This document shows, one piece after another, positions 1 to 45,883 of a DNA stretch of 64,000 nt. Position numbers and translations under genes: made by a program. Positions within the stretch are counted from its first letter, which is position 1. Each line of letters begins with the position of its first letter. This DNA is from Rhodovastum atsumiense (lineage in GTDB: Bacteria; Pseudomonadota; Alphaproteobacteria; Acetobacterales; Acetobacteraceae). The notes below the pieces were generated by a model that saw nothing but the letters and a program-made list of their open reading frames with translations, did no database searches and was not told the origin of the DNA. Location of the stretch: positions 2,444,501 to 2,508,500 of the forward strand of contig NZ_OW485601.1 of assembly GCF_937425535.1 (NCBI RefSeq), given 5' to 3'.

Positions 1-773
1 CTGTCCTCCAGCCCCACCCGCACATTGCCACCGAGGATGCCGGCCATGGTGGTGAAGGCCATCTGGTGGCGGCCGGCGGCGAGCACCGACCACACGTAGT
101 CCCGGCCGAACAGGCGGTCGGCGGTCTCGCGCATGAACAGCAGGTTGCGCGGATCGGCGCCAATGCCGCCGAGAATGCCGAAGATGCTCTGCACGAACAG
201 CGGTGGTTCCACCACCTTGCGGTCGAGCATGTGGGCCAGGTTGTAGAGGTGGCCGATGTCGTAGCATTCGAATTCAAAGCGGGTGCCATGGCCGTGGCCC
301 ATGAGCCCCACGATGCGAGCGATATCCTTGAAGGTATTGCGGAAGATGAAATCTTCCGTGCGGGTGAGGTACTCCTTCTCCCAGCCATGCTTCCATTCGC
401 TGATGCGGGCGGCGGCCGGGGAGATGTTGAAGTTCATGCTGCCCATGTTGAGGCTGCACATCTCCGGGCTCGCCTGCAGCGGGGCGGCGAGGCGTTCCTC
501 CACGGTCATGCCGAGGCCGCCGCCGGTGGTGATGTTCACCACCGCGTCGGTGTTCTGCTTGATGATGGGCAGGAAGCGCATGAACACGGCGGGATCGGGC
601 GTGGGCTCGCCGGTTTCGGGGTCGCGCGCATGCAGGTGGAGGATGGCGGCGCCTGCTTCGGCGGCGGCGATGGAGTGGGCGGCGATATCCTCGGGGGTGA
701 TCGGCAGGTGGGGGGACATGCTCGGGGTGTGGATGGCCCCGGTGACGGCACAGGAAATGATGACCTTGGACAT
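1..773 (-). CDS. 3-keto-5-aminohexanoate cleavage enzyme-like protein (BKACE/DUF849), 3' truncated by window edge
   Basis: The frame runs from an ATG at 773 off the left edge of the window, giving 257 visible residues; family members are about 270-310 aa. The N-terminus MSKVIISCAVTGAIHTPSMS followed by HLHARD (His46 and His48) is typical of the zinc-dependent beta-keto acid cleavage family, in which the two histidines bind Zn. These enzymes condense a beta-keto acid with acetyl-CoA, giving acetoacetate and a new acyl-CoA; the founding member acts in lysine fermentation. The true substrate cannot be told from sequence. It is transcribed away from the tRNA gene and has no visible partner in the window. 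Family assignment is firm, substrate is not. Confidence 0.85.
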   Translation of the reverse strand, partial: MSKVIISCAVTGAIHTPSMSPHLPITPEDIAAHSIAAAEAGAAILHLHARDPETGEPTPDPAVFMRFLPIIKQNTDAVVNITTGGGLGMTVEERLAAPLQASPEMCSLNMGSMNFNISPAAARISEWKHGWEKEYLTRTEDFIFRNTFKDIARIVGLMGHGHGTRFEFECYDIGHLYNLAHMLDRKVVEPPLFVQSIFGILGGIGADPRNLLFMRETADRLFGRDYVWSVLAAGRHQMAFTTMAGILGGNVRVGLED

Positions 774-952
774 GTTGTTTTCTCCCCGGTTGCTTGCTTG
801 TGGGGGCAACTCTGCACGGGGAGAGGCGGCAGGCCAAGCGGGTGAGGGAACAAATCCAATGCGGGCAGGGAATGGACGGGTGGGGCGCCGGCACGTCGTG
901 GCGCGGGATGGGCTGACGCGCGGGACGGGTTCGGCTATATGAGGTCTCGGCT

Positions 953-1029
953 GTCCCCGTAGCTCAGCCGGATAGAGCACAGGATTCCTAATCCTGGGGC
1001 CGTGGGTTCGAATCCCGCCGGGGACACCA
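953..1029 (+). tRNA. tRNA-Arg (anticodon CCT)
   Basis: A 77-nt cloverleaf with encoded CCA. The acceptor arms GTCCCCG (953-959) and CGGGGAC (1019-1025) pair, with discriminator A1026 and CCA at 1027-1029. The T-arm GGGTTCGAATCCC is present. The anticodon stem CAGGA/TCCTG closes the loop TTCCTAA, placing CCT at 987-989, which reads AGG. Minor tRNA-Arg genes are frequent integration sites for mobile islands, and AT-rich DNA follows a few hundred bases downstream. Confidence 0.97.
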
Positions 1030-1527
1030 ATCACCAGGTCCAGGTGCGGCATGCTGTGTTGCCTGGACCGCGCCGGGGGATGCAACCACAAGTTACCGGA
1101 TCGCGCGTATCCGGTGCTTCGCTCTTCCATGCCGCCACGAAGCAGTCGCAGTCCCGCAAGGGCATCATCTAAAACTTTACATTGCAGCCTGGGTTTTTCG
1201 GGATGCCGCTGTGCGTCTCGCGGCAGGCCAGGTCAGTCCTGGTGGTGCATCTGCGCAGATCGCAGGAGAACCGGAACCTGGGATGCTGTTGACCGACTTT
1301 CGGTCGGAACTGTGAAGTGATCGTTCAATCAACAGATCAACCGATCTGCGTGACTCCGGGCCTTGGATGTTCTTTTGTACGTTTATTTATAACATCGAAT
1401 CACATTCGATAACGAAAATCTGCATTTACAACGCATCATATCCAATGAAATAGATATGCATATCTCTGGATGTTGCGTTGATTTACTTATTTTCCCCAAA
1501 GTGATGGGCTTCGATTCGAGGTCAAGG
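1030..1527. other. non-coding, partly AT-rich stretch between tRNA-Arg and the rSAM gene
   Basis: No convincing gene is seen. Two small inverted repeats are visible: CCGAC/GTCGG at 1293-1307 and CAGATC/GATCTG at 1333-1348. From about 1320 to 1500 the base composition drops sharply below the GC-rich surroundings, suggesting acquired DNA or a promoter zone for the radical-SAM gene. I found no second copy of the tRNA 3' end nearby that would mark an attachment site. Confidence 0.5.
1452..1465. promoter_or_regulatory. perfect palindrome AGATATGCATATCT upstream of rSAM gene
   Basis: This 14-bp perfect palindrome in an AT-rich context lies about 62 bp ahead of the preferred start of the radical-SAM gene. 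It could be an operator. No cognate regulator is visible nearby, so this is inference only. Confidence 0.3.
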
Positions 1528-2625
1528 ATGTCAGAGGCTGCTGACGCCTGGGCGAAGGCCTTGGAAAACATGATCACCTGGAAGGAGCGCCAGCGTGCAG
1601 AGCATCCGCTGACCTACCTGTTCTGGGAATCGACGCTCCGTTGCAACCTGTTCTGCCGGCATTGCGGCAGCGATTGCCTGCGCGACGATTCCACCGCCGA
1701 CCGCGAACTGGCGGGTGAGGTCATCTGCGCGGAACTGGATGCGATCGCCAGGGAGTACGATCCCGGGGGCATCACCTTCGCCATCATCGGCGGCGAGCCG
1801 CTGGTGCGCCGGGACATCGATGCGGTGGGCGCGCATGCTGCCGCGCTCGGCTACAACTGGGGCATCACCACCAATGCCATGCTGCTGGACGAGAAGCGGC
1901 TGGCGTCGCTCAAGGCGGCCGGCCTGACAAGCATCGCGGTCAGCCTCGACGGGCTGGCGGCGCAGCACGATGCGTTGCGCCGCCGTCCAGGGGCGTTCCT
2001 GCGGGTCAGCGACGCCCTGCGCCGGTTGGTGGCCGATCCGTTCTGGCGTGCCTTCGACGTGATCTGCTGTGTCAGCCGGATCAACATCGACCACCTGGGG
2101 CCCTTCGTCGACTACCTGGCCGGGCTCGGCGTGCCGGGCGTGCGGCTGACGCCGGTGTTCTCGCGCGGCCGGGCCGATGCGGAATCCGGGCTGATGCTGT
2201 CGGGCGAGCAGACGCGGCAGTTGCTGGCTTTCGTTGCCACGCAACGCGCGAGCCGCAAGGACATCGACGTGACGCTGTCCGAGGAAGGCTATTGGGGACC
2301 GAACTGGGAATGCCGCATCCGCGAGAGCTTCCACTATTGCGGTTCCGGCATCAACATCGGCTCGATCCTGTATGACGGGCAGGTGACCGGTTGCCCCAGC
2401 GTTTCCCGACGGTTCGTGCAGGGACATTTGCGGGACGCGCCGTTCCTCGGGATCTGGAACAACGCCTTCACCCTGTTTCGCCAGCGCGAGACGGTGGCCC
2501 TACCACGATGCCGGGCCTGCGCCCACTGGGATCTGTGCAAGGGGGGCGGTTGCCACCTGTTCGATCCCGTCGACAGCGACGTGGAGACGTGCAGCCTGCG
2601 GAAAATCGGTGAACTCTGGGAGTAG
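1528..2625 (+). CDS. radical SAM/SPASM peptide maturase-like protein
   Basis: The protein has 365 aa from the ATG at 1528, which has a GAGG-type ribosome site just upstream; in-frame starts at 1456 and 1501 would add an unconserved AT-rich-coded stretch. The radical SAM motif CxxxCxxC is C39-N-L-F-C43-R-H-C46, and the SAM-binding 'GGEP' stretch follows (IIGGEPLVRRD). The C-terminal part carries further Cys residues (271, 289, 328, 331, 337, 342, 355) in an arrangement typical of SPASM domains that hold auxiliary 4Fe-4S clusters. SPASM radical enzymes mostly modify ribosomal peptides or proteins. The gene is followed after 4 nt by a short peptide gene with a leader-like motif, so a RiPP maturase is the best guess. 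The exact modification is unknown. Confidence 0.85.
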   Translation: MSEAADAWAKALENMITWKERQRAEHPLTYLFWESTLRCNLFCRHCGSDCLRDDSTADRELAGEVICAELDAIAREYDPGGITFAIIGGEPLVRRDIDAVGAHAAALGYNWGITTNAMLLDEKRLASLKAAGLTSIAVSLDGLAAQHDALRRRPGAFLRVSDALRRLVADPFWRAFDVICCVSRINIDHLGPFVDYLAGLGVPGVRLTPVFSRGRADAESGLMLSGEQTRQLLAFVATQRASRKDIDVTLSEEGYWGPNWECRIRESFHYCGSGINIGSILYDGQVTGCPSVSRRFVQGHLRDAPFLGIWNNAFTLFRQRETVALPRCRACAHWDLCKGGGCHLFDPVDSDVETCSLRKIGELWE

Positions 2626-2629
2626 AAAT

Positions 2630-2878
2630 ATGGATTCCGACGCCAAACGGCAGTTCCTGCGACGCTGGGCGAACATCGCCGGCGGCGTGGAGACGCCACG
2701 CGCGCTGACGGACCGGGAACTCGATGCCGTGGCGGCAGGCTGGGTCGCCAAACCTCTCTATGGGGTCATTCCCGTTCCCATCAGGCGTCATCCCGTCATC
2801 CCCGTCACGCCGCCTGCGATCCAACCCCTCTATGGCGTTCGTGTCGATCCCATCTCCTTGAATTCCGCAACGCAATAG
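2630..2878 (+). CDS. candidate RiPP precursor peptide with duplicated PLYGV motif
   Basis: An 82-aa peptide begins 4 nt after the radical-SAM stop, with GGGAG 7 nt upstream of the ATG. Residues 26-37 read LTDRELDAVAAG, closely resembling the leader end of many GG-type bacteriocin and Nif11/NHLP-like precursors (LTDEELxxVAGG). The remaining 45 residues form a proline-, valine- and arginine-rich core in which PLYGV occurs twice (residues 42-46 and 66-70). There is no cysteine, so thioether chemistry is unlikely; a C-C or C-O crosslink at tyrosine, or epimerisation, are possibilities. No protease or exporter is seen adjacent. The precursor role is inferred from size, position and leader motif, not from a recognised family. 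Confidence 0.6.
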   Translation: MDSDAKRQFLRRWANIAGGVETPRALTDRELDAVAAGWVAKPLYGVIPVPIRRHPVIPVTPPAIQPLYGVRVDPISLNSATQ

Positions 2879-3025
2879 CGCCGGTTTCCGATTGGCGTGC
2901 CGTCTTCATCCAGGGCGGGATGTTGCGGGCCCGGCGTGGCTTTCGGTTCTTCGTCCGGGGCCGATATGCTATCCGGGCCATGCGCTGCATCTGGCGCGAG
3001 GGCATGGATGGACCGGAACGGCCGC

Positions 3026-3484
3026 ATGAAGATATTCGTTGATATGGACGGTGTTCTTGCCGATTTCGATGCCGGCCACGTGCGGGTGTTCGGCTACCGG
3101 CCTGACAAACTGGCCGACAATGTCGACTGGCAGAAGGTCCGCGCCGTTCCTGGATTTTATCTGAACCTGCCGCCGATGCCGGACATGCGGGAACTCTGGG
3201 CGGCGGTCGCGCCGCATGACCCGATCGTCCTGACCGGTGTCCCGCCTTCGGTGCGGGAGGCGCCCGACAACAAGCGGGCATGGGTCCGGAAATACCTGGG
3301 AAGTCACGTCGAGGTCCGATGCTGCCGGTCGAAGGAGAAATGCCTCCATGCCGCACCGGGCGATATCCTGATCGACGACTGGGAAAAGTACAAGGCTCTC
3401 TGGATCGGCAAGGGAGGGCGCTGGATCACCCATACCAGCGCCAGCACCACCATCCGCGCGTTGCGCACTCTGGGCGTGCTGTAG
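3026..3484 (+). CDS. HAD-superfamily 5'(3')-deoxyribonucleotidase-like phosphatase
   Basis: The protein has 152 aa starting at MKIFVDMDGVLADFD. The DxDGV motif (Asp6 nucleophile, Asp8 acid/base) is the HAD catalytic signature in the form used by NT5C-type nucleotidases. 'LTGVPP' is a plausible motif II and 'DILIDDWEKY' the acidic motif IV that binds Mg2+. The ATG at 3026 is chosen because the catalytic motif starts directly after it; an earlier in-frame start at 2897 would add low-complexity residues. Related proteins dephosphorylate (deoxy)nucleoside monophosphates, but substrate is not shown here. It stands alone between the rSAM unit and the manganese exporter. Confidence 0.8.
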   Translation: MKIFVDMDGVLADFDAGHVRVFGYRPDKLADNVDWQKVRAVPGFYLNLPPMPDMRELWAAVAPHDPIVLTGVPPSVREAPDNKRAWVRKYLGSHVEVRCCRSKEKCLHAAPGDILIDDWEKYKALWIGKGGRWITHTSASTTIRALRTLGVL

Positions 3485-3711
3485 ATCGCGGCCCCGACCG
3501 GCAGCGGCAGGCCGCGGGTGGTATCGGCCGCGACGCCAGCACGAGCTGTCGGGGCTCAACCAAAAATCGAGGCCGCTTGCGGATTGTTCCCGAAATCAAA
3601 AGGTCCTGGCCTGCCATCGGCCGTTTCGGGAGGGACGGTTTCCGCTCATGCCTGCCTCCGCGATAACGACGTATGAAACGTTTTGACCTCGGCGGCGGTG
3701 GCCGCTAGTTC

Positions 3712-3825
3712 TGCCCACGTTGGGGAGTAGCCGCTGCCGGCTGGCAGGGCCGTGTCAACATCCTTGCGCAGTTGCGCATGGCACGGTCGGCGGTCCGAGT
3801 GACCGGATTGGCGAGACCAAACGTT
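3712..3825 (+). promoter_or_regulatory. yybP-ykoY manganese riboswitch
   Basis: The leader of the downstream mntP-like gene carries the hallmark blocks of the yybP-ykoY RNA in order: GGGGAGTAG at 3722-3730, GTCAACA at 3753-3759 and GCGAGACC at 3811-3818. The flanks CGTTGG and CCAAACG can close the P1 helix. This RNA class senses Mn2+ and controls Mn exporters. The aptamer ends about 60 nt before the ATG at 3886, leaving room for an expression platform. Recognised by eye from conserved blocks; covariance scoring was not possible. Confidence 0.8.
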
Positions 3826-3885
3826 CCCGGACGGCCTCGATGCAGGCCATCGCGGGGCGTGTGGATCGCTGGATGGAGACTTCGG

Positions 3886-4449
3886 ATGAGCGCGGCTGCA
3901 ATCGTTGCCCTGGCTTTCAGCATGTCCATGGATTCCTTCGCGGCCGCCCTGGGGAAGGGGGCCGCGCTGAACCGTCCCTGCCTGGCCGAGGCACTCCGCA
4001 CCGGGATGATCTTCGGTGCCGTCGAGGCGATCACGCCCATTCTCGGCTGGACTGCCGGTCTCGTCGCGGCGGCCTGGGTGGCCCGGATCGATCATTGGGC
4101 GGCCTTCATCATCCTCGGCCTGATCGGCGGCCAGATGGTGTTCAAGGCGCTCTGCGGCAAGGATGAAAGCGCGCCGGTGCCCGAGCGGCATTCGCTGGGC
4201 GTGCTGATCCTGACCGCCATCGCCACCAGCCTCGATGCCATGGCGGTCGGCATCACCCTGGCCTTCATCAACGTGGATATCGTCTCGGCCGCCCTGGCGA
4301 TCGGGCTCGCCACCTTCCTGATGGCCACGCTTGGCACGCTCGCGAGCCGCTGGATGGGGCCGGTGTTCGGACGTGCGGCGGAACTGGTCGGTGGCCTGTG
4401 CCTGATCGCCATCGGCACCCGGATCCTGATCGAGCACACGCTCGCCTGA
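3886..4449 (+). CDS. mntP: MntP-type manganese efflux pump
   Basis: A 187-aa, almost wholly hydrophobic protein with six likely membrane helices arranged as two homologous halves. Each half carries the family signature: SMSMDSFAAALGKG with Asp16 and ATSLDAMAVG with Asp117, the acidic residues known to be required for Mn2+ export in MntP. The start at 3886 fits the family length. Control by a manganese riboswitch in the leader fits the function. The gene converges on dmeF, with a shared hairpin between the two stop codons. Confidence 0.93.
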   Translation: MSAAAIVALAFSMSMDSFAAALGKGAALNRPCLAEALRTGMIFGAVEAITPILGWTAGLVAAAWVARIDHWAAFIILGLIGGQMVFKALCGKDESAPVPERHSLGVLILTAIATSLDAMAVGITLAFINVDIVSAALAIGLATFLMATLGTLASRWMGPVFGRAAELVGGLCLIAIGTRILIEHTLA

Positions 4450-4470
4450 GCCGCTCCCGCGGCTTCAGGC
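4444..4470. terminator. bidirectional hairpin between convergent mntP and dmeF
   Basis: Arms GCCTGAGCCGC (4444-4454) and GCGGCTTCAGGC (4459-4470, one bulged T) pair around a TCCC loop. The hairpin overlaps both stop codons of the convergent genes. There is no T-run, so its efficiency as an intrinsic terminator is uncertain. Confidence 0.5.
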
Positions 4471-5748
4471 GGCATCCCGCAGCGGGGCGGCGATCCGGTT
4501 GACCTCGACGGTGACGTGCGAGAGGGCGGGGAAACCGCCCAGACGCTCGCGATAGAAGCCTGGCTCGCGGGGGTGCTGCGTCGCCACCGACAGGATGGCG
4601 CCCAGATGCCCGGGGCCGAGCCGCCACAGATGCAGGTCGGTCACCCGGTCGCCGCTGGCTTCGATCGCCTTCCGGATCCGGGCGGCCGTTTCGTGGTCCG
4701 GGGTCATGTCGAGCAGCACGGCGCCGGCATCGCGCAGCAGGCCCCAGGACCAGATGGCGATCACCGTGGCGCCGACGACGCCCATCATCGGGTCCAGCCA
4801 GATCCAGCCCAGCGTGCGACCGAGCAGCAGGCCAATGATGACCAGCACCGAGACGGCGGCATCGGCCAGGACATGGACGATGGCCGCGCGCAGGTTGTTG
4901 TCGCGGTGCGATGCGGCGTGGGTGTGCTCATGCGCGGCGTGGTCGTGTTCGGCAAAAACGATGTTGTGCTCGCTGGTCCGCCCATCCGCCTCGATCCGGA
5001 CACGGGCGATGAACTCGTGCGGTTCCGGGATATCCCCGGTGCTTTCCAGGTAGGCGCCGCGATCCACCAGGGGGAAGGACTGGCGCCCGCCGTCGGGACG
5101 TTCGGTCGTGATGGCCACGCTCACCGGCCGCGGTGCATTCTCCAGGCAGAGACGGAACCGGGCCGAGATCCCGTCCTCGTGGATCCCAAGCCGCGCCGCC
5201 CCCTGCGCCAGGGCGAGGCGGTGTTCATCTTCATCCGCATGGCCATGGGAATGAGCGTGGCCGTGGTGATGGCCATGAGGGTGGTCGTGTCCGTGGCCGC
5301 CCAGCAGCCATACGCTGGCCACGTTCACCAGCAGGCCGAGCACGGCAATGGCCAGCGCCTCGTCGAAGTCGATCGCCACCGGTGCGATGGCGCGCAGCAC
5401 GGACTCATAGCCGATGAACGCGGCGATCATCGCCAGCACGATGGCGCTGGCGAAGCCGGCGAGGTCGCCGAACTTGCCGGTGCCGAAGCTGAAGCGTGCG
5501 TCGCCGTCCCATCTGCGGGCGTAGCGATAGGCCAGGGCCGCGAGCAGCAGCGCGCCCGCGTGCGTGGCCATGTGCCAGCCATCCGCTTCCAGGGCGATGG
5601 AGCCGAACACCATGCCGCCGACGATTTCGGCGACCATCATGCCGCTGCACAGCGCGATGACCGCCCAGGTCCGGCGTTCCGCCCGGGCGTGGCCGGTGCC
5701 GAGGAAATGGTGGGTGTGGACGAAGGACGCGGTCTCCTGGCCGTTCAT
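4465..5748 (-). CDS. dmeF: DmeF-like cation diffusion facilitator (Ni/Co efflux)
   Basis: A 427-aa member of the CDF family in the inner membrane, expected to export divalent cations in exchange for protons. The N-terminus has HTHHF, and the membrane domain carries the metal-site motifs ALEADGWHMATH and, in the second half, HVLADAAVSV. A long cytoplasmic loop is extremely His-rich (GHGHDHPHGHHHGHAHSHGH), and a further loop has HDHAAHEHTH. These features fit the DmeF subgroup that exports Co2+ and Ni2+. It lies 10 nt downstream of a DmeR/RcnR-type repressor gene and is evidently co-transcribed with it. The start ATG at 5748 matches family N-termini. Confidence 0.92.
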   Translation of the reverse strand: MNGQETASFVHTHHFLGTGHARAERRTWAVIALCSGMMVAEIVGGMVFGSIALEADGWHMATHAGALLLAALAYRYARRWDGDARFSFGTGKFGDLAGFASAIVLAMIAAFIGYESVLRAIAPVAIDFDEALAIAVLGLLVNVASVWLLGGHGHDHPHGHHHGHAHSHGHADEDEHRLALAQGAARLGIHEDGISARFRLCLENAPRPVSVAITTERPDGGRQSFPLVDRGAYLESTGDIPEPHEFIARVRIEADGRTSEHNIVFAEHDHAAHEHTHAASHRDNNLRAAIVHVLADAAVSVLVIIGLLLGRTLGWIWLDPMMGVVGATVIAIWSWGLLRDAGAVLLDMTPDHETAARIRKAIEASGDRVTDLHLWRLGPGHLGAILSVATQHPREPGFYRERLGGFPALSHVTVEVNRIAAPLRDAA

Positions 5749-5758
5749 GGCGACGTCC

Positions 5759-6037
5759 TCATTTCAGATAGGTGCGGATGACGTCGAGCAACTGCCCGAC
5801 GCCATCCGGGTTCAGGGCGTCCGGGTATTTTTCCGGGTCGACCAGATGCACGCGCACGTGGTCCTCGAGCACCTCGGCCATCAGCCCGGCCATGGCGGCG
5901 CGGGTGCTGGCGATGAGGTGCATGACTTTCTCGCAGCCGGCTTCGGATTCCAGGGCGCGCTCGATCGCCTCGACCTGGCCGCGGATGCGGCGCACCCGGG
6001 CGAGCAACTTGGCCTTCTCACGGATCGTGTGGGTCAT
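5759..6037 (-). CDS. dmeR: DmeR/RcnR-family Ni/Co-responsive repressor
   Basis: A 92-aa all-helical CsoR/RcnR/FrmR-family protein. It carries His3, Cys35, His60 and His64 at exactly the positions used by RcnR to bind Ni2+ or Co2+, so it should sense these metals rather than copper or formaldehyde. It is the first gene of a two-gene operon with the exporter dmeF. A GC-tract inverted repeat lies 38-54 bp upstream of its start and is the likely operator, giving autoregulation and derepression when metal binds. Confidence 0.92.
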   Translation of the reverse strand: MTHTIREKAKLLARVRRIRGQVEAIERALESEAGCEKVMHLIASTRAAMAGLMAEVLEDHVRVHLVDPEKYPDALNPDGVGQLLDVIRTYLK

Positions 6038-6074
6038 CGGCCGGTTCCCGCTCCGTCGTCATGGAAAAGGTAGA

Positions 6075-6091
6075 ATAGGGGGCTACCCTAT
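6075..6091 (-). promoter_or_regulatory. DmeR/RcnR-type operator upstream of dmeRF
   Basis: ATAGGG-N5-CCCTAT is a perfect inverted repeat with a G/C tract between AT flanks, the form recognised by RcnR/DmeR tetramers. It lies just upstream of dmeR on the minus strand. Confidence 0.7.
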
Positions 6092-6125
6092 GGCAAGCGT
6101 GTTCCGGCGGCTCCGCGGCGTGCGG

Positions 6126-7580
6126 CTATTGCGGCGGTGAGAACCGGGCCCGCGTGGCGTCCGTGGTCTGGCGACGCTCCAGCACCAGGCGATAGCCGAT
6201 ATAGTATTTGTAGATGTTGCGGACGTAGCGCACGGTTTCCTGGCCGATGCGCCGGGCGGCGATCCGCTCGACATGGTCGAACCAGAGATTGGGGTCCAGC
6301 CCTTCCTGCTCCGCTTCCCGGCGCAGCCGGGCAATCCGGTTCGGCCCGGCGTTGTAACAGGCGAAGGCGAACAGCGTCCGGTTCTGTTCGTCGAAGCTGG
6401 CATCGGAAAGATACACGTCGAGCAACTGGCGCAGGTACTTCGCCCCGGCATGCACGTTCGGGCCGGGCTCGCGGATATCGCCCACCTTCATGGCGGCCCC
6501 CGTGGCCGGCAGCAACTGCATCAGGCCGATCGCGCCGGCGGAACTGCGCAAGGTCTGGTCGAGCTTCGATTCCTGGTAGCCCTGTGCCAGCAGCATCAGC
6601 TCATCGAAGCCGTATTCCGGGGCGTAGCGCTGGAACAGGGCCAGCGTGGCGTTGAATTTCTGCAATTCGGCCGGCGTGGTGGCGGCATGCAGGTGGACCA
6701 CTTCCTGCACGATGGCGCGCTCGCGCGAATAGAGCGAGTCCAGCGAGCCGGAAACGCTCAGAAGAAAGGCATTGAGGACCTCCAGCAGCCGGGGATTGCC
6801 GGGGCGCACCGCGCAGGCCAGGCGCGCATCGGTGCGCAGCACGACCGAAGGATGCGCCATCAGGCCCGGAATGACCCGCTTCCACGCCTCGAACATCCAG
6901 GTTTCGGCGGGGATCGCCGGCAGCAGCCCGGCGGAGAGCATCTCCATCATGTCCTCGGCCTCCAGTGTGGCGGGGAGGTCGAGCAGTACCGCGGGCGCAC
7001 GTCCGGCCGTCTGCAAGCGGTCATTGAGCGCACGCACGCTTTCGTAGGGGGTGGTGCCGGGGCAGGCGGCGATGCGTCGTCCGGACAGGTCCTCGGGCGC
7101 GGCCATCGGCGTCTCGCCGGCCTGAGTGAGCACGATCTCGCGCACGCCGACGCGGGTCGGGATGCTGAAGGCGACCAGCGATTCACGCTCCGGGGTGACG
7201 GTGATCTCGCCGGCGGCGATGTCGCCATGGCCGGCGATCAGGTCGGGGAGCAACCGGTCGCGGGAGACGGGGTGAAGCGAGACGATCAACGTCTTGCGGA
7301 CAGCGGGATAGCGCTCCCGCAGCCAGTCCTCGAGCGCCTCCGCGCCGGTGGCGAGCAGGCCGTGGAAGTTGCCGCGGTCCTCGGTGAACAGGGTGCGGCT
7401 GTACGGCACCAGCAGGCGCAGGTTGCCGCGCTGCAGGACGGCCTCGAAGTCGCGCGTGTCAGGCTGGCTGCCGATGTCCAGATGCGTGACCTGTGGCCTG
7501 GCATGGGCTGCCAGCGGTGCTCCAAGCGGGCCGGCAATGGCGGCAAGCGACGCGATGGTATGGCGACGGGTCAACGGCAC
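6126..7580 (-). CDS. mltF: MltF-like membrane-bound lytic transglycosylase
   Basis: A 484-aa exported protein with a short N-terminal signal containing a twin Arg (LTRRHTIASLAAIAG). Residues about 50-270 form a periplasmic solute-binding (SBP_bac_3) fold, followed by an SLT lysozyme-like domain at about 325-460. The catalytic Glu is E337 in YQESKLDQ, with GAIGLMQLLPATG and ACYNAGPNRI as the further SLT signatures. This two-domain plan is that of MltF, which cleaves murein to 1,6-anhydromuropeptides and may use the binding domain as a peptide-sensing regulator. No lipobox cysteine is visible, so the anchor differs from lipoprotein Mlts. It has no operon partner. Confidence 0.88.
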   Translation of the reverse strand: MPLTRRHTIASLAAIAGPLGAPLAAHARPQVTHLDIGSQPDTRDFEAVLQRGNLRLLVPYSRTLFTEDRGNFHGLLATGAEALEDWLRERYPAVRKTLIVSLHPVSRDRLLPDLIAGHGDIAAGEITVTPERESLVAFSIPTRVGVREIVLTQAGETPMAAPEDLSGRRIAACPGTTPYESVRALNDRLQTAGRAPAVLLDLPATLEAEDMMEMLSAGLLPAIPAETWMFEAWKRVIPGLMAHPSVVLRTDARLACAVRPGNPRLLEVLNAFLLSVSGSLDSLYSRERAIVQEVVHLHAATTPAELQKFNATLALFQRYAPEYGFDELMLLAQGYQESKLDQTLRSSAGAIGLMQLLPATGAAMKVGDIREPGPNVHAGAKYLRQLLDVYLSDASFDEQNRTLFAFACYNAGPNRIARLRREAEQEGLDPNLWFDHVERIAARRIGQETVRYVRNIYKYYIGYRLVLERRQTTDATRARFSPPQ

Positions 7581-7597
7581 GGCGACGATCCCCGGGG

Positions 7598-7617
7598 TTG
7601 AACAGGGCCTTGTTCAA
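7598..7617. repeat. inverted repeat TTGAACA/TGTTCAA upstream of mltF
   Basis: Arms at 7598-7604 and 7611-7617 flank GGGCCT, about 20 bp ahead of the mltF start. A second pair ATGTCA/TGACAT follows at about 7622-7642. The position suggests an operator or promoter element for mltF, but the regulator is unknown. Confidence 0.35.
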
Positions 7618-7806
7618 TTTTATGTCATAATGTTGCTGACATGCATCCGGTCTGAAGCCGAAATCTTCATCCCTTCATACGGTCTTTTGACCGGCACGGG
7701 ACGGGGAAAGGGCGGATCAGGCCCCCGGCATATGGCACGGCGGCGTGCAGTCCGCCGGTCCCGTCCCCATCTGCCCGGCCACAATGATCCGATAAGGGAG
7801 GATGCA

Positions 7807-8286
7807 ATGCCGTTCGACGCGGTCGGCGTGCCGGCCGGAGCCGGCCCATGCCCGGTGGTTCCCCCGTTCCTGCCCCCGGTGCTGCAGGCGATCCGCGACC
7901 GGATCGCGCGGATGCGGCGCAATGCCTCGAACCGTCCCGAGCCGCTGGCGACGCTCACGATCCTGCGGGCCGCACGCAGCCTGATCGCCGACGAGCGGGA
8001 TTGGGCACAGGGCACCTACGTCATCGGCCATCGTCGCTGCGTCATCGCCGCGCTGGAAGCGGTGGGGGCGCGCTTCGGGCGGCGCTCCAGGCTCGATGCC
8101 GCTACCGCGCTGGCCACGCTGGCCCGGGCGCAGGGCTTCGAGTCGATCGAGCGGATGAACGATGCCGTGACCCACGCCGATCTGCTGGCGAGCTTCGATG
8201 CGGCCATCGCGCGGGCCTCCGCCGCGCTGGCGGCGGAGGCGGGCTTGCCTGCGCGCAGTCGTGCAGGTCTGCACGCAGGCGTCTGA
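7807..8286 (+). CDS. conserved hypothetical protein (DUF6197-like)
   Basis: A 159-aa soluble protein. After a proline-rich N-terminus it has LTILRAARSLIADERDWAQGTYVIGHRRCVIAALEAVG, a pattern like that of DUF6197 proteins ('LxxARxLIxDPxxWxQGxxA...CxxGAL'). Function of that family is not known. The start at 7807 is the first ATG with a purine-rich AGGGAGGATG upstream. It is a single gene converging on pspC. The family match is made from memory of the pattern and is moderate only. Confidence 0.6.
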   Translation: MPFDAVGVPAGAGPCPVVPPFLPPVLQAIRDRIARMRRNASNRPEPLATLTILRAARSLIADERDWAQGTYVIGHRRCVIAALEAVGARFGRRSRLDAATALATLARAQGFESIERMNDAVTHADLLASFDAAIARASAALAAEAGLPARSRAGLHAGV

Positions 8287-8300
8287 CCGGGCGGAACGCC

Positions 8301-8699
8301 TCAGCGCCCGAGGTCGCGGAAGCCGCGGCGCAGCTCGAACTCCTCGGATGTGACCAGGGTTTCCATCCGCATGATCCGCTCGTCGAGGTCACGGAACTTG
8401 CGGCGCAGCGCCTGCACGGTCTCTGGCGGGTCGGTCGCCACGCCCCGCCAGAACGCCTCTTCCCCCCGGTCACGGAACAGCGCCGCCGGGCGGGGGCGTA
8501 GCACCAGGGCCAGCACCACGTAGCCGAGCGCCGTGGGGACGAAGAACAGCGCCAGGCAGGCCACGGCGATCACGCGAACCAGGCCGGGCCCGACTCCCAG
8601 GTAGTCGGCGATCCCGGCGCAGACACCGGCGATCCAGCGCGTGTCCGTGTTCCGGTACAGCCGGAACGGGTTCTCCGACGAACCGTCCATCGTCGTCAT
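8301..8699 (-). CDS. pspC: phage shock protein C (PspC domain)
   Basis: A 132-aa membrane protein. Residues about 10-70 form the PspC domain (LYRNTDTRWIAGVCAGIADYLGV, then a transmembrane segment at VRVIAVACLALFFVPTALGYVVLALVL). The C-terminal part is a predicted amphipathic/coiled helix rich in Arg and Glu. PspC senses envelope damage with PspB and relieves PspA inhibition of PspF. It overlaps pspB by 4 nt and is last in the pspABC operon. Confidence 0.92.
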   Translation of the reverse strand: MTTMDGSSENPFRLYRNTDTRWIAGVCAGIADYLGVGPGLVRVIAVACLALFFVPTALGYVVLALVLRPRPAALFRDRGEEAFWRGVATDPPETVQALRRKFRDLDERIMRMETLVTSEEFELRRGFRDLGR

Positions 8700-29913: not shown

Positions 29914-30372
29914 ATGAGTGATCCGTTCCACAACCGTCCGATCCCTCGTGGCGTCCTGATCGGGGCGGGTCTGCTCATTGCCTTCACCATCACCCTTGCC
30001 GCGGCGACGCGTCTCAGCGGCAGCACGGAAGTCTTCGCGCCGACCGCCGCGCCGGTTGCCTCCCGCGATCTGCGGTTCGAGGACCGGCCCGATGGCAGCA
30101 TCGTCGTGATCAGTGCCGAGGATGGCAGCACCGTCGAGGTGCTCGCACCCGGCACCAACGGATTTACCCGCGCCACGCTGCGCGGACTGGCGCGCGAGCG
30201 TAAGCGCGACGATCTCGGCGCGGTCGCGCCGTTCCGCCTGACCCGATGGGCGGACGGACGGCTGACGCTCGAGGATGTCGCCACCGGTCGCCGCGTCGAT
30301 CTGGAAGCCTTCGGCTCCAGCAATGTGCAGGCCTTTGGACGCCTGCTCTCCGGGAGGAGCGCCACACCATGA
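29914..30372 (+). CDS. puhC: PuhC, photosynthetic complex assembly protein
   Basis: A 152-aa protein with an N-terminal membrane helix (GVLIGAGLLIAFTITLAAATRL) and a periplasmic domain with DLRFEDRPDGSIVVISAEDGSTVEVLAPGTNGF, as in PuhC proteins, which assist LH1/RC assembly. Position after puhB and size both fit. Its stop overlaps the next ORF (ATGA). Confidence 0.92.
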   Translation: MSDPFHNRPIPRGVLIGAGLLIAFTITLAAATRLSGSTEVFAPTAAPVASRDLRFEDRPDGSIVVISAEDGSTVEVLAPGTNGFTRATLRGLARERKRDDLGAVAPFRLTRWADGRLTLEDVATGRRVDLEAFGSSNVQAFGRLLSGRSATP

Positions 30373-30653
30373 TCTTCGGCCGTCGGACCGTCGACGTGAC
30401 CTGTACGGTCGAGATCGAACAAACCCCCGAAAGCCTGCATGCCCACGCCATCCCCGACGGGATCGAGATCCGTCCGGGTGACAGCGTGATCGTGCATGGC
30501 ATTCCCACCGACATCCGCTTCGGCGACCGCGTGTCGCTGCAATGCCGCGCCACGGTCGTGCGCGCGTCATGGCTCGGGAGGCTGTGGACGAAGATCCGCG
30601 CCCCCTTCGAGCTGACGGAGCTTTACGAAGTGGGATTCCAACGGGGGAGATAA
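30369..30653 (+). CDS. small conserved ORF between puhC and acsF
   Basis: A 94-aa soluble, beta-rich-looking protein with no membrane helix or cysteine motif. It overlaps puhC by 4 nt and ends 4 nt before acsF, so it is embedded in the operon and surely translated. The short acidic domain ends '[35 protein letters not shown]', suggesting a membrane-peripheral tail. Proteins of this size occur at the same place in other purple bacteria without a known role. A part in cyclase or RC assembly is only suggested by position. Confidence 0.8.
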
Positions 30654-30657
30654 TGCG

Positions 30658-31722
30658 ATGGACGCAGCCGCGTTCCGTCCGGCACTGAACGAAACCACAC
30701 ACCAGGCGCGCCAGGACACGATCCTGACCCCGCGCTTCTACACCACCGATTTCGCGGCGATGGACCGCCTTGATATCAGTCCCGTCCGGGCCGAGTGGGA
30801 CGAGCTGATGGCCGAGTTCCGGCGCGACACCAACAAGGGCCATTTCATCCGCACTCCCGAATTCGACGTCGATCTCTCGACCCTGTCGCCGGGGCTGCGC
30901 GCGGAATTCCTGGAATTCCTGGTCAGCTCGGTGACCGCCGAATTCTCGGGCTGCGTGCTGTACGCAGAGATCAGGAAGCGCATCCACAATCCGGAGATCC
31001 GCGACTGGTTCGGCTACATGAGCCGTGACGAGGCGCGGCATGCCGGATTCATCAATGACACGCTGAAGGATTTCGGCGTCGGCGTCGATCTCGGTTTCCT
31101 GGCGCGCGCGAAGAAATACACCTATTTCCAGCCGAAATTCATCTTCTACGCGGTGTACCTGTCGGAGAAGATCGGCTACGCCCGCTACATCACCATCTAC
31201 CGCCATCTCGAACGTCACCCGGAGCGGCGCTTCCATCCGATCTTCAAGTGGTTCGAGAACTGGTGCCAGGACGAGTTCCGTCACGGCGAGGCTTTCGCGC
31301 TGGTCATGCGCGCCAACCCGCATCTGTTGACGGGGCTCAACAAACTGTGGATCAAGTTCTTCCTGCTGGCCGTGTACACAACGATGTATGTGCGCGACCA
31401 TGCCAGGCCGGACTTCCATGCCGCGCTCGGCATCGATCCCACCGACTATGATTATCGCGTCTTCCGCGTCTGCTCGGAGATCAGCCGGCAGGTGTTCCCG
31501 CTGACGCTCGATATCGATGCGCCGGCCTTCCGCAGTGGCCTCGACCGGCTGTTCCGCATCACCCGCGCGCTCTCGGCGGCGAAGGCGCAGGGCGGTGTCG
31601 TCGGGCGGGTGAAGCAGGCCGGCCTGCTCGCCGCTGCGGCGGCCACCATTGGCCGCCTCTATCTCATTCCTGCCAGGCGCAACGAATTGCCTGCGCAGAC
31701 CCGTCTCGCCGCCGCCTGGTAG
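30658..31722 (+). CDS. acsF: AcsF, aerobic Mg-protoporphyrin IX monomethyl ester cyclase
   Basis: A 354-aa di-iron oxygenase that forms the isocyclic ring E using O2. The carboxylate/histidine ligand pattern of the ferritin-like fold is clear: [28 protein letters not shown] and [13 protein letters not shown]. Its presence together with bchE means ring E can be made with or without oxygen. It lies between the small ORF and the puhE fusion in one operon. Confidence 0.97.
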
Positions 31723-31750: not shown

Positions 31751-33526
31751 ATGTCGCAATATCTCTCACCAGCGCTGCATGCCTTGTTCGTCTGGTGGTT
31801 CAGCACCGGGGTGGTGATCTATCTCGACGGGCTGCCGCGGCGGACGCATCGCTGGACGATGCTCGGTTCGACGCTGGTGCTGGCGTTCTCGCTGTACGGC
31901 GTGTGGTACAGCAGCGGGGACGTCAGCGTCGGCGGCGCCTATGCCGCCTTCACCTATGGGCTGCTCGCCTGGAGCTGGATCGAGGTCAGCTTCTACCTGG
32001 GATACGTCACCGGGCCGCGCAAGGAGACCTGCGCCGACGGTTGCTCCGGTTGGCGCCATTTCGGCCACGCCATCATGGCGAGCCTCTGGCACGAACTGGC
32101 GATCCTGGCGCTGGCAGCGGTGGTGGGGGCGCTGACCTGGGAGCAGCCGAACCAGGTCGGGCTATGGATCTTCGTGGTGCTGTGGTGGATGCACCAGAGC
32201 GCCAAGCTGAATGTCTTCCTCGGGGTGCGCAACCTCAACGAGGAGTTCATCCCCGACCACGTCGCCTTCCTCAAGAGCTTCTTCACCAAGAAGCCGATGA
32301 ACCTGCTGTTCCCGTTCTCCATCACGCTGTCCACCGTGGCGGCGGTGGTGGTGTTCCAGCGGGCCTTCGCCGTGGGGGCGGACGGCTTCACGGTCACCGG
32401 CAACATGAGCGTGGGCGCGATGCTGGCGCTCGCGATCCTGGAACACTGGTTGCTGGTGCTGCCGATCCCCTCGGCGGCGCTGTGGGCCTGGGGGCTGCGC
32501 TCGCGCCCGGCCGCGCATGAATGCGATATCGAGATCGTTGCGGGCTTCCTTGGCGCGGGCAAGACGACCTTCATGCGCCGGCTGCTCGACCAGGCCAACC
32601 CGGCGCAGCGCACCGTGGTGCTGGTCAACGATTTCGGCGCCCTCGGCGTTGATGCCACGCTGCTGCGGGGGCGGGGCGCGGAGGTGGTGGAACTGCCGAA
32701 CGGATGCATCTGCTGCTCGCTGCGCAAGGACCTGTCCGCGCAACTGCTGTCGATGATCGCGCGCTATCGCCCCGCACGCGTGCTGATCGAGCCGAGCGGG
32801 GTCGCCGATCTCGCCGCGTTGCTCGGCGTGCTGCACGGGCGTGATCTCCGCGCCTGCGTGAAGACCTTGCGCGTCAGCACGGTGGTCGATGCCGGCTCGT
32901 TCCTGCGAGACTACGGCAGGATGCATGCGCTGCTCGATGCGCAGGTGCAACTTGCGCATGCGGTTGTCATCAACAAGGCCGATCTTGTCTCGGCGGCTGA
33001 GCTGCGTGCGATCGAACATACTCTGCATGGCCTGAATCCGCTTGCGCTCGTCGTGCCCGCGACCTATGGGGCCGTGCGTCCCGGCGCTCTGGATGCGCTG
33101 GCGGCGGACCCACACCGGGACGAGACGGATGCAGGGGCTTCGGAGGCGGACGAGACGGCGCACGCCCCGCATGGCCATGGCGGACACGGCAGACTGGCGG
33201 AAGCACATGTGCATGCGCATGTGCCGGCAGCCCTGGGCATGACGTCGTGGAGCATGGTGCTCTCCGGCACATGTGATCCGGCGTTGTTGGACGAAGTGCT
33301 GGAGGCGACGGCGGGTGGTGCCTTCGGCGAGGTCGAGCGGGTGAAAGGGATCGCCCGCACCCGCGACGGCTGGATCAGGTTCGATGTCGCGGGCGGCCGC
33401 CCAAGCATGGCCGCATTCGCGGCGCGAGAGGGAGAAGAGGCCCGCGTGGTCGCCATCGGGCGCCGCGTGGATCAGCATCGTCTGCAGATGGCATTTGATG
33501 CATGCGCCTCGGAAACGACGGTATGA
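31751..33526 (+). CDS. puhE: PuhE fused to a CobW/COG0523-type G3E metallochaperone GTPase
   Basis: A single 591-aa reading frame. Residues about 1-258 are PuhE (DUF3623): a polytopic membrane protein with FVWWFSTGVVIYLDGLPRRTHRW, RKETCADGCSGWRHFGHA and NVFLGVRNLNEEFIP. Residues about 259-591 are a complete G3E GTPase: Walker A GFLGAGKTTF, the metal-binding CxCC motif in NGCICCSLRKDL, IEPSGVAD, NKAD, a His-rich loop (HAPHGHGGHG...HVHAHVP) and a C-terminal CobW_C domain. No ATG, GTG or TTG lies in frame between the last PuhE helix and the P-loop, so the GTPase cannot be translated alone with an intact P-loop. PuhE tunes RC/bacteriochlorophyll formation; COG0523 proteins deliver metals. Function of the fusion is inference. 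Confidence 0.93.
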   Translation: MSQYLSPALHALFVWWFSTGVVIYLDGLPRRTHRWTMLGSTLVLAFSLYGVWYSSGDVSVGGAYAAFTYGLLAWSWIEVSFYLGYVTGPRKETCADGCSGWRHFGHAIMASLWHELAILALAAVVGALTWEQPNQVGLWIFVVLWWMHQSAKLNVFLGVRNLNEEFIPDHVAFLKSFFTKKPMNLLFPFSITLSTVAAVVVFQRAFAVGADGFTVTGNMSVGAMLALAILEHWLLVLPIPSAALWAWGLRSRPAAHECDIEIVAGFLGAGKTTFMRRLLDQANPAQRTVVLVNDFGALGVDATLLRGRGAEVVELPNGCICCSLRKDLSAQLLSMIARYRPARVLIEPSGVADLAALLGVLHGRDLRACVKTLRVSTVVDAGSFLRDYGRMHALLDAQVQLAHAVVINKADLVSAAELRAIEHTLHGLNPLALVVPATYGAVRPGALDALAADPHRDETDAGASEADETAHAPHGHGGHGRLAEAHVHAHVPAALGMTSWSMVLSGTCDPALLDEVLEATAGGAFGEVERVKGIARTRDGWIRFDVAGGRPSMAAFAAREGEEARVVAIGRRVDQHRLQMAFDACASETTV

Positions 33527-33619: not shown

Positions 33620-34831
33620 ATGAACTACGATGCCATCTTCAATAAGCAGCTAGACGGCCTCCGCAAGGAGGGTCGCTATCGCGTGTTCGCCAACCTTGAG
33701 CGCCATCGCGGTGATTTCCCCCGCGCGACGCATCATCGCGAGCGCGGGACCCAGACGGTCACGGTGTGGTGCTCCAACGACTATCTCGGCATGGGCCAGC
33801 AGCCGCAGGTGCTCGCGGCGATGCACGAGGCGCTGGACAAGTGCGGTGCGGGTGCGGGCGGCACGCGCAACATTTCCGGCACCAACCACTACCACGTCCT
33901 GCTGGAGCGCGAACTGGCCGACCTGCACGGCACCGAGGCAGCGCTGCTGTTCAATTCCGGCTACATGTCCAACTGGGCATCGCTGGCCACGCTGGGCGCC
34001 CGGCTGCCGGGCTGCGTGATCCTCTCCGACGAGCTGAACCATGCCTCGATGATCGAGGGCGTGCGCCACAGCCGTGCCGAGAAGATGATCTTCCGTCACA
34101 ACGACCCGGAAGACCTGGATCGCAAGCTGGCCTCGCTCGACCCGGACCGGCCGAAGCTGGTGGCCTTCGAGTCCGTCTATTCGATGGATGGCGACATTGC
34201 CCCGATCGCGGAACTGTGCGACGTGGCCGATCGTCACCACGCCATGACCTATCTGGACGAAGTGCACGCGGTCGGCATGTACGGCAAGCGTGGCGGCGGC
34301 GTCTCGGAGCGTGACGGCGTCGCGCACCGGCTGACGGTGATCGAGGGCACGCTCGGCAAGGCGTATGGCGTCGGTGGCGGCTACATCGCCGGCTCGGCCG
34401 CCATGTGCGACTTCGTGCGCAGCTTCGCCTCGGGCTTCATCTTCACCACCTCGCTGCCGCCGGTGGTGGCGGCTGGCGCCATCGCCAGCATCCGTTACCT
34501 CAAGAACAGCCAGGCCGAGCGCGAGCGGCACCAGGAGCGGGTGCGCACCGTGCGCCGCCGGCTCGACGAGGTGGGCGTGCCGCACCTGGAGAACCCGAGC
34601 CACATCGTGCCGGTGATGGTGCGCGACCCGGTGGTGGCCAAGCAGATTACCGACCTGCTGCTCGACAATTACGGAATCTATGTGCAGCCGATCAACTATC
34701 CGACCGTGCCGCGCGGCACCGAGCGCCTGCGCATCACGCCCTCGCCGCTGCACAGCGATGCCGACATCGACCATCTGGTGCAGTCGCTCTCGGAGATCTG
34801 GTCGCAGTTCAGCCTGAAGCGGGCGGCCTGA
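33620..34831 (+). CDS. hemA: HemA, 5-aminolevulinate synthase
   Basis: A 403-aa PLP enzyme condensing glycine and succinyl-CoA, the committed step of tetrapyrrole synthesis in alphaproteobacteria. Motifs: [39 protein letters not shown], and the PLP lysine in [17 protein letters not shown]. The ATG at 33620 with an upstream GGAGGC-type site gives the standard length. It lies downstream of the puhE-cobW fusion with a separate promoter region and a strong hairpin after it. A second, housekeeping alas gene elsewhere cannot be excluded. Confidence 0.97.
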
Positions 34832-44161: not shown

Positions 44162-45883
44162 ATGCGCGTGCTGATGATCCAGCCAAACTATCACGCAGGC
44201 GGCGCCGAGATCGCCGGAAACTGGCCGCCGGGCTGGGTGGCGTATGTCGGTGGCGCGCTGAAGGCAGCGGGTATCGAAAATATCCGTTTCGTCGACGCGA
44301 TGACCAACTACATCGACGACGACCGCCTGCGCGAGATCATCCGGCAGAACCAGCCGGACGTGGTGATGGCCACCGCCATCACGCCGATGATCTACCAGGC
44401 GCAGACGACCCTGAAGATCGCCAAGGAAGCGGCGCCGAACGCGGTCACCGTGCTCGGCGGCATCCACCCGACCTTCATGTATGCGCAGGTGCTCAGCGAG
44501 GCGCCGTGGATCGACTACATCGTCCGCGGCGAGGGCGAGGAGATCTGCGTCAACCTGATGCGCGCGATCAAGGACGGCACGCATCTGGCGCAGCGGCGCG
44601 AGATCAAGGGGCTCGCCTTCCTCGAGGACGGGCAACTGGTCGCGACGCCGGCGCATCCGGTGATCAAGGACCTCGACAGCCTGACGCCGGACTGGTCCCT
44701 GCTTGAATGGGACAAATACATCTACGTGCCGCTGAACTGCCGCGTGGCGGTGCCGAACTTCGCGCGCGGCTGCCCCTTTACCTGCCGGTTCTGCAGCCAG
44801 TGGAAGTTCTGGCGCCAGTACCGCACCCGCGATCCGAAGAAGTTCGTCGACGAGATCGAGGTACTGGTCAAGGAGCACAAGGTCGGCTTCTTCATCCTCG
44901 CGGATGAGGAACCCACCATCAACCGCAAGAAGTTCATCCGCCTGTGCGAGGCGCTGATCGAGCGCAACCTGCCGGTGCAGTGGGGCATCAACACCCGCGT
45001 CACCGACATCCTGCGCGACCGCGACCTGCTGCCGATGTTCCGCAAGGCGGGGCTGGTGCATGTCTCGCTCGGCACCGAGGCGGCGGCGCAGCTCAAGCTT
45101 GACCTGTTCCGCAAGGAAACCACGGTCGAGCAGAACAAGCTCGCGGTGAAGCTGCTCAAGGACGCCGGCATCGTCGCCGAGGTCCAGTTCATCATGGGGC
45201 TCGAGAACGAGACCCCGGAGACCATCGAGGAAACCTACCGGCTGGCGCTGGACTGGGCCCCCGACATGGTCAACTGGAACTGCTACACGCCCTGGCCCTT
45301 CGCCGAATTGTTCGAGGATCTCGGCGACAAGGTCGAGGTGCGCGACTACTCGAAGTACAACTTCGTCACGCCCATCATGAAGCCCGAGGGGATGACCCGC
45401 GAGCAGGTGCTGAAGGGCGTGCTGAAGAACTATGCGCGCTTCTACATGCGCAAGACCTTCTTCAGCTATCCGTGGATCCGCGACAAGTACAAGCGGAAAT
45501 ACATGCTCGGCTGCCTGAAGGCCTTCGCCAAGACCACCTGGGAGAAGCGCTTCTACGATCTCGAGCGTATCAAGTACAAGGGTATGTCGGCTGAGGTCGA
45601 TCTCGGCTTCGACGAGACCAGGGTGCTGACCCGCGAGCAGATCGCCGAGCTGAAGACGGCGCGTCCGGAACTGGCCGCCGACATCGACTTCAAGGGCACG
45701 CCCAAGGTGGCGATCTCCGCCTGCGGCGCGCCGAACGACCTCGTCTACCAGGAAAAGCCGCAGCGGCGGATCAAGGAAGTCCCGGTCTCCGCCTGCGGCG
45801 CGCCGAACGACCTGGTCTACGAGGAACCCGAGGAAGCGGCTGCGGCGCCGAAGGCCGCGCCGCAGCAAGCGGCCCAGCCCTGA
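44162..45883 (+). CDS. bchE: BchE, anaerobic Mg-protoporphyrin IX monomethyl ester cyclase
   Basis: A 573-aa radical SAM enzyme that forms ring E with water as oxygen source, using cobalamin. The N-terminal B12-binding domain ([14 protein letters not shown] ... [16 protein letters not shown]) is followed by the radical SAM motif [11 protein letters not shown] at about residues 204-214. The C-terminus is odd: the segment [11 protein letters not shown] occurs twice, 24 residues apart (DNA 45714-45748 and 45786-45820), before an Ala/Pro-rich tail. It is the first gene of bchE-bchJ and has an FNR-like box upstream. Confidence 0.97.

Follow-up and report, generated by a model that had tools for sequence, protein, structure and literature searches.

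The DNA analysed here, a stretch of 64,000 nucleotides of Rhodovastum atsumiense contig NZ_OW485601.1 (positions 2,444,501 to 2,508,500 of the forward strand; the window in what follows), contains a gene in which the membrane protein PuhE (DUF3623) is covalently fused to a complete COG0523/G3E GTPase with its CobW_C domain. The gene lies on the plus strand at 31751–33526 and is a single open frame of 591 amino acids plus stop, as a sequence-only reading of this DNA had described it. The fusion is genuine and conserved. It joins two known families and is apparently undescribed: our literature searches, including one for puhE together with CobW, returned no account of a PuhE–GTPase fusion, and the sequence-only reading knew of none. 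What that reading did not see is that the fusion is old and shared, that it decays stepwise, that a Cys/His signature in PuhE tracks the GTPase, and that the fusion occurs in chloracidobacteria.

All features of the gene given below are on the plus strand. The PuhE domain (31751–32509, residues 1–253, seven predicted transmembrane helices) matches DUF3623 (Pfam, PF12291) with 353.8 bits against a cut-off of 27, and the protein scores 311.7 bits against a cut-off of 164.05 for PuhE TIGR03055 (NCBIfam). It is followed by the G3E (cobW) nucleotide-binding domain (32531–33052, residues 261–434; Pfam, 139.7 bits, cut-off 20.7) and by CobW_C (33242–33505, residues 498–585; Pfam, 39.9 bits, cut-off 22). 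The motifs named by the sequence-only reading are all present: the P-loop GFLGAGKT (32543–32566, residues 265–272), the CxCC metal motif C319-I-C-C322 (32705–32716, residues 319–322), NKAD (32972–32983, residues 408–411) and a disordered His-containing loop (33134–33226, residues 462–492), with eight His within residues 440–500. The CxCC motif is placed between switch I and Walker B, in agreement with the definition given in PMC10642216. The gene is the only DUF3623 gene in the 7.42 Mb genome, which has 12 matches to the cobW domain, the fusion included.

The whole fusion was modelled by AlphaFold2 with a predicted local distance difference test score (pLDDT) of 88.7 and a predicted template modelling score (pTM) of 0.79; the PuhE part alone gave 96.2 and 0.91, and the His-containing loop stays under a pLDDT of 50. 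In the model the seven transmembrane helices are followed by a short helix (241–249) and by the first strand of the GTPase (258–265). The predicted fold of PuhE has no match in the PDB at E ≤ 0.001, among 230 at E ≤ 10, and the top PDB match to its sequence has an E value of only 0.73.

We gathered 199 distinct PuhE open reading frames (ORFs), which fall into three states: with the GTPase, with a CobW_C remnant only, and alone. PuhE, G domain and CobW_C are joined in one frame in 62 ORFs, and three more carry a partial GTPase (contig-cut L013 and L085, frameshifted L086). In 15 ORFs PuhE is followed by CobW_C only, and 119 are without a tail, four of them cut by a contig end (L033, L095, L100 and L159). 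In the window's family DUF3623 matches were found in 122 of 397 genomes, in the class in 29 of 385 (27 above the cut-off) and in the phylum in 21 of 329, these samples being overlapping. Among the 117 family genomes that were read (the partial matches in G018, G026, G178, G309 and G381 were left out) there are 21 intact fusions, one cut fusion, three without CxCC, 15 with CobW_C only and 77 without a tail, the last number including contig-cut G074 and G209. A scan of named contigs kept 80 of 242 matches, representing 76 loci, and in 57 of these a single frame covers both PuhE and the GTPase. The carriers include Lichenicoccus, Acidiphilium and other Acetobacteraceae, Aurantimonas, Fulvimarina, Jiella, Rhodovibrio, Caenispirillum, Lichenibacterium, Pararhizobium mangrovi and Chloracidobacterium. 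The names Kouleothrix, Gemmatimonadaceae, Herpetosiphonaceae, Thiodictyon, Croceicoccus and Ferrovum, attached to metagenome-assembled genomes, are doubtful and carry no claim here. The family and named-contig scans together reject a fusion private to the window's genome.

A frameshift or mis-joined genes at the junction are excluded because the same single frame runs through PuhE, G domain and CobW_C in 62 distinct ORFs. The only split copy among the stretches read is that of Jiella pelagia (L086, 5950–8149), in which a frameshift lies inside the fused gene and two overlapping frames share the GTPase. The BchE match of this genome is likewise in two pieces, by assembly error or decay. No separate GTPase ORF was found beside the 119 loci with PuhE alone in the stretch read there (median 2056 bases past the ORF; 0–186 bases in six of them). 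The window gene has no in-frame ATG, GTG or TTG from the end of PuhE to the P-loop, as the sequence-only reading had pointed out. This does not extend to a general rule: such a codon is present at the junction in 30 of the 62 fused loci, and separate translation of the GTPase from an internal start was rejected as not conserved.

The presence of the GTPase is accompanied by five specific residues of PuhE. Positions 94, 98, 103, 106 and 148 are C-C-H-H-H in all 62 scored rows with the GTPase, in none of the 15 with CobW_C only and in seven of the 114 with PuhE alone. These counts leave out L079, L083, L092, L100 and L155 (fewer than 240 aligned positions) and L033, L095 and L159 (cut by a contig end); the 62 rows differ from the 62 used for motif counts, L079, L083 and L092 being only in the latter and L013, L085 and L086 only in the former. 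In the window gene the part C94-x3-C98-x4-H103-x2-H106 is encoded at 32030–32068, in predicted cytoplasmic loop 3 and the start of the fourth transmembrane helix, and the H148 codon at 32192–32194, in the fifth. Position 148 is His in 62 of 62 rows with the GTPase; in the 129 without it there are 115 Arg, nine His and five Asn. For position 103 the corresponding figures are 62 His of 62, and 106 Arg, 19 His, three Lys and one Leu. Arg occupies both positions in three annotated PuhE proteins that are unfused, those of Roseobacter litoralis, Novosphingobium capsulatum and Candidatus Thiodictyon syntrophicum. The Asn148 rows are the unfused L127, L148, L149, L150 and L151. In nine rows H148 alone is replaced, by Arg (C-C-H-H-R), as though it were the first to be lost. 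No GTPase without H148 is found among 179 scored rows of a tree of neighbouring genes (52 have both, nine H148 only, 118 neither).

Seven columns of PuhE are fixed with the GTPase and reach at most 25% without it, and four of these are Cys/His, a proportion with a hypergeometric p of 0.007 relative to the columns conserved with the GTPase, uncorrected for shared descent. Loops 1, 3 and 5 and the C-terminus of PuhE are rich in Lys and Arg and the other loops are poor in them, which places the C94–C98 loop on the same side of the membrane as the GTPase.

The fusion is also present in the family to which Chloracidobacterium sp. CP2_5A belongs, part of a group whose photosystem is of another kind. 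DUF3623 was found in seven of its 10 genomes, in frames of 600–615 amino acids (overlapping L089, L090 and L098), and all seven have both CxCC and the C-C-H-H-H signature. There is no Photo_RC match in any of the 10 genomes; the window's genome has two. The fusion is therefore not tied to the assembly of a type II reaction centre, and pigment metabolism, rather than reaction-centre assembly, is what these data point to as the common ground of its carriers. Near the fusion gene of CP2_5A, on its upstream side, there is a bchB-like gene for a nitrogenase-type reductase that has a PCP_red domain.

The motifs of the fused GTPase are generally well kept. The P-loop and NKxD are present in 62 of 62 fusions, CxCC in 59, and at least three His in the loop region in 49. 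Two groups have extra Cys pairs in this His-rich loop: the Acidiphilium group (L027, L029/L057, L032 and L036), for example CTDTGC before HPDH, and the Acidocella rows (L052, L061, L062 and L063), with another pair. The fusions without CxCC are L193 and the window's two PuhE-bearing congeners (L034 and L037); no DUF3623 was found in its four other congeners. These two are 70% identical to the window protein in PuhE, 50–53% in the G domain and 57–58% in CobW_C. The corresponding values for the intact L010, L012 and L049 are 65–66%, 57–62% and 54–59%, and 423 intact pairs with a PuhE identity of 68–78% have means of 62% in the G domain and 46% in CobW_C. Judged by these identities, the G domain of the CxCC-less congeners looks relaxed and CobW_C does not. 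The CobW_C-only tails score 67–89 bits in ten rows and 48–53 in five with a profile of fused CobW_C domains, to be compared with at least 73 for fused rows and at most 55 for stand-alone COG0523 proteins; descent from the fusion in the five weak rows thus rests mainly on position.

In the PuhE tree, built with the signature columns included, the fused rows mostly form one cluster with losses nested within it, and the CobW_C-only rows lie outside in several places. The neighbour-gene tree excludes PuhE (182 rows, 1249 columns; its lhaA and puhA labels are those we presume from gene order), and the distribution of the GTPase on it needs 11 changes, gains and losses not being separated in these unrooted trees. 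An early fusion followed by repeated loss would fit both trees, and puhE may also have been transferred.

Among 48 stand-alone GTPases used for tree and profile comparisons, a set whose search was partly guided by query peptide patterns, the closest found are six from Bacillota (L101–L106), with 200–217 bits to the profile of the fused G domain. Another Bacillota protein, L107, scores 172 bits and the remaining ones at most 146. In the GTPase tree the fused rows and the six Bacillota proteins group with a Shimodaira–Hasegawa approximate likelihood-ratio test (SH-aLRT) value of 90, within a limited sampling that includes no reference of COG0523 subfamily 13 of Haas 2009. The L101 operon (434–8638), the only one scanned with Pfam, encodes the COG0523 GTPase, a sigma-54 activator, two B12-binding proteins, MtaB and a RACo-like protein; the neighbours of L103 (359–8831) look alike, judged by their first residues only. 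COG0523 genes of this kind are described as sitting with mtaA and mtaB, MtaA and MtaB being Zn-dependent, in the available text of Haas 2009 (PMC2770081). Likewise, the accessible part of PMC10642216 presents CxCC as characteristic of the nucleotide-dependent metallochaperones, a class in which ZNG1 delivers zinc.

We consider that the protein has about an even chance of being a membrane-tethered metallochaperone that loads metal onto its own PuhE domain and so controls bacteriochlorophyll synthesis. The C-terminal cytoplasmic G3E GTPase would bind a metal ion, probably Zn2+, with its CxCC motif and, in those fusions that have it, with the His loop. Its GTP cycle would gate the hand-over of the metal to a putative Cys/His site in the membrane domain of PuhE, facing the cytoplasm and formed by C98, H103, H106 and H148 and perhaps C94, and the metal state of PuhE would in turn set its action on bacteriochlorophyll production. 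Where the GTPase has been lost, H103 and H148 have mostly become Arg, and PuhE would act metal-free. In favour of this explanation we count the 62 fused ORFs with their motifs, the signature and the charge pattern that puts the C94–C98 loop on the GTPase side, the closest Bacillota GTPases with their link to Zn-dependent proteins, and the fusions of the chloracidobacteria. The idea of a membrane-tethered metallochaperone in a photosynthesis cluster, put forward by the sequence-only reading, is supported. The literature found, as far as its available text goes, states no biochemical activity for PuhE; the natural fusion to a metallochaperone and the GTPase-tracking Cys/His residues give it a testable role, the metal-dependent control of bacteriochlorophyll, and suggest a metal hand-over step built into bacteriochlorophyll metabolism.

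Several observations weigh against this explanation. The full signature is present without the GTPase in seven rows (L039, L178, L179, L186, L195, L202 and L235), which lie beside the window's clade together with the degenerate L193 on the PuhE tree and in three separate places on the neighbour-gene tree. L099 and L237 lack H103 and H106 and still have H148, by itself or together with C94, and the three CxCC-less fusions retain the signature. Fewer than three His are found in the loop region of 13 of the 62 fusions, and none in the chloracidobacterial L089, L090 and L098. A tree-aware test of signature against GTPase is underpowered, both sharing descent: starred branches supply just five independent pairs (all branches together 11), with 3.7–4.0 in the expected direction, none in the opposite one and a median p of 0.125. 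The chloracidobacterial fused GTPases join those of Bacillota (SH-aLRT 82) and not the other fused ones, which does not bear out a single origin of the fusion; this placement may reflect either a long-branch effect or a fusion that took place a second time. Finally, the literature found holds no biochemistry for any member of the fusion.

The tail might instead be mainly a docking or regulatory device, in which CobW_C binds a partner and the GTPase is a switch, the metal being of little weight. This would agree with the 15 genomes that keep only CobW_C behind PuhE and with the CxCC-less congeners, less similar to the window protein in the G domain than in CobW_C, when the intact rows are at 57–62% against 54–59%. 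We find it rather unlikely in view of the retention of CxCC in 59 of 62 fusions and of the Cys/His residues that make up four of the seven GTPase-tracking columns.

Another reading is delivery of iron (or zinc) to a separate neighbouring client, chiefly the di-iron cyclase AcsF, with PuhE as no more than the membrane anchor; iron for AcsF had been proposed by the sequence-only reading. The acsF gene directly adjoins the fusion in the window, and AcsF is above the cut-off in 78 of 79 PuhE genomes, the only miss being the draft genome of L085. The enzyme is, however, equally universal in genomes with and without the GTPase and so does not need it; its distribution does not discriminate on iron for AcsF. 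Such a client also leaves the GTPase-tracking Cys/His residues of PuhE unexplained, and at some fusion loci (L047 and L049) the DNA read next to puhE showed no acsF, the L049 genome having AcsF elsewhere. On these grounds an AcsF client is improbable.

A special case of self-loading of PuhE concerns Zn-bacteriochlorophyll. The fusion would be the missing zinc-handling factor of the organisms that make this pigment (Acidiphilium, chloracidobacteria), a GTP-driven zinc transferase acting on the central metal via the Cys/His site of PuhE; in other carriers it would make a zinc pigment in small amounts or under certain conditions, or protect from the wrong metal. Acidiphilium rubrum (L057) and the chloracidobacteria have the intact fusion with the signature. 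We know of no Zn pigment in most of the fusion-carrying genera, which counts against this special case, and none of the genomes was identified as that of C. thermophilum itself. In the available text of a 2020 review (PMC7242693) the way in which Zn comes to take the place of Mg in A. rubrum and C. thermophilum is called unknown, and the fusion is a candidate gene for this replacement. Against this, Rhodopila, called a sister genus of Acidiphilium, apparently has no detectable Zn pigment in the part of PMC12542754 available, its PuhE not being identified here. The link is a lead and not a proof, and we hold it to be distinctly improbable.

The sequence-only reading had also raised cobalt for BchE, the anaerobic cyclase that depends on B12. 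The supply of cobalt or cobalamin to this enzyme is very improbable as a general job, in spite of the corrinoid proteins next to the closest stand-alone relatives in the one operon scanned and of the BchE of the window's genome, because of 21 family genomes that are at least 90% complete and have a fusion whose CxCC is not lost, BchE is above the cut-off in seven and not in 14, and because 20 named-contig fusion genomes comprise three above the cut-off, four with fragments below it and 13 with none. The 21 genomes include G132, contig-cut before an intact CxCC could appear, and G494 and G1081, in both the BchE and the AcsF counts, have matches at the same places and are seemingly one genome counted twice. 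BchE is matched twice above its curated cut-off in the window's genome, with scores of 800 and 822 bits; the two places are G000:C1:5405249–5406742, outside the window, and window 44162–45883.

In the window the fusion is preceded by puhB, puhC and acsF (30658–31722, plus strand) and followed by hemA, coding for 5-aminolevulinate synthase (33620–34831, plus strand). Among the ten frames of this neighbourhood NCBIfam names puhB, puhC, acsF, hemA, bchO, bchE and bchJ. A frame of 95 amino acids between puhC and acsF (30366–30653) is without an NCBIfam family; we take it to be possibly bciE. Roseobacter litoralis and Novosphingobium have hypothetical genes at the same place. The available text of PMC3176799 describes a conserved gene order puhABC-hyp-acsF-puhE, and the fusion gene lies in the puh–acsF–hemA neighbourhood by which PuhE is recognized.

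The window protein resembles known PuhE (DUF3623, TIGR03055) in passing both family cut-offs, in its seven predicted transmembrane helices, in its acsF and hemA flanks and in H114, E115, E231 and H232, which are invariant in an alignment of 103 rows. It differs by the C-terminal GTPase and by H103 and H148, where the three annotated unfused proteins have Arg. PuhE reportedly modulates bacteriochlorophyll production, going by the title of a 2005 paper of Aklujkar. A place of DUF3623 in the transmembrane acyltransferase clan is unsupported there and has since been withdrawn, according to the accessible text of PMC12423673. With the COG0523/G3E metallochaperones (YjiA, CobW, ZNG1) the protein shares the P-loop, CxCC, NKxD and CobW_C, and E. 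coli YjiA is the top PDB match both by sequence and by fold; unlike them, its GTPase is joined to a polytopic membrane protein. It stays far below the equivalog cut-offs for CobW of cobalamin synthesis (TIGR02475, 99.4 bits against 332.1) and for the zinc metallochaperone ZigA (NF038288, 98.5 against 600). The closest stand-alone relatives found may belong to the COG0523 GTPases of corrinoid-methyltransferase operons, subfamily 13 of Haas 2009, L101 lying with B12-binding proteins, MtaB and a RACo-like protein; they lack the PuhE partner and are 29–34% identical to the window protein over the best segment.
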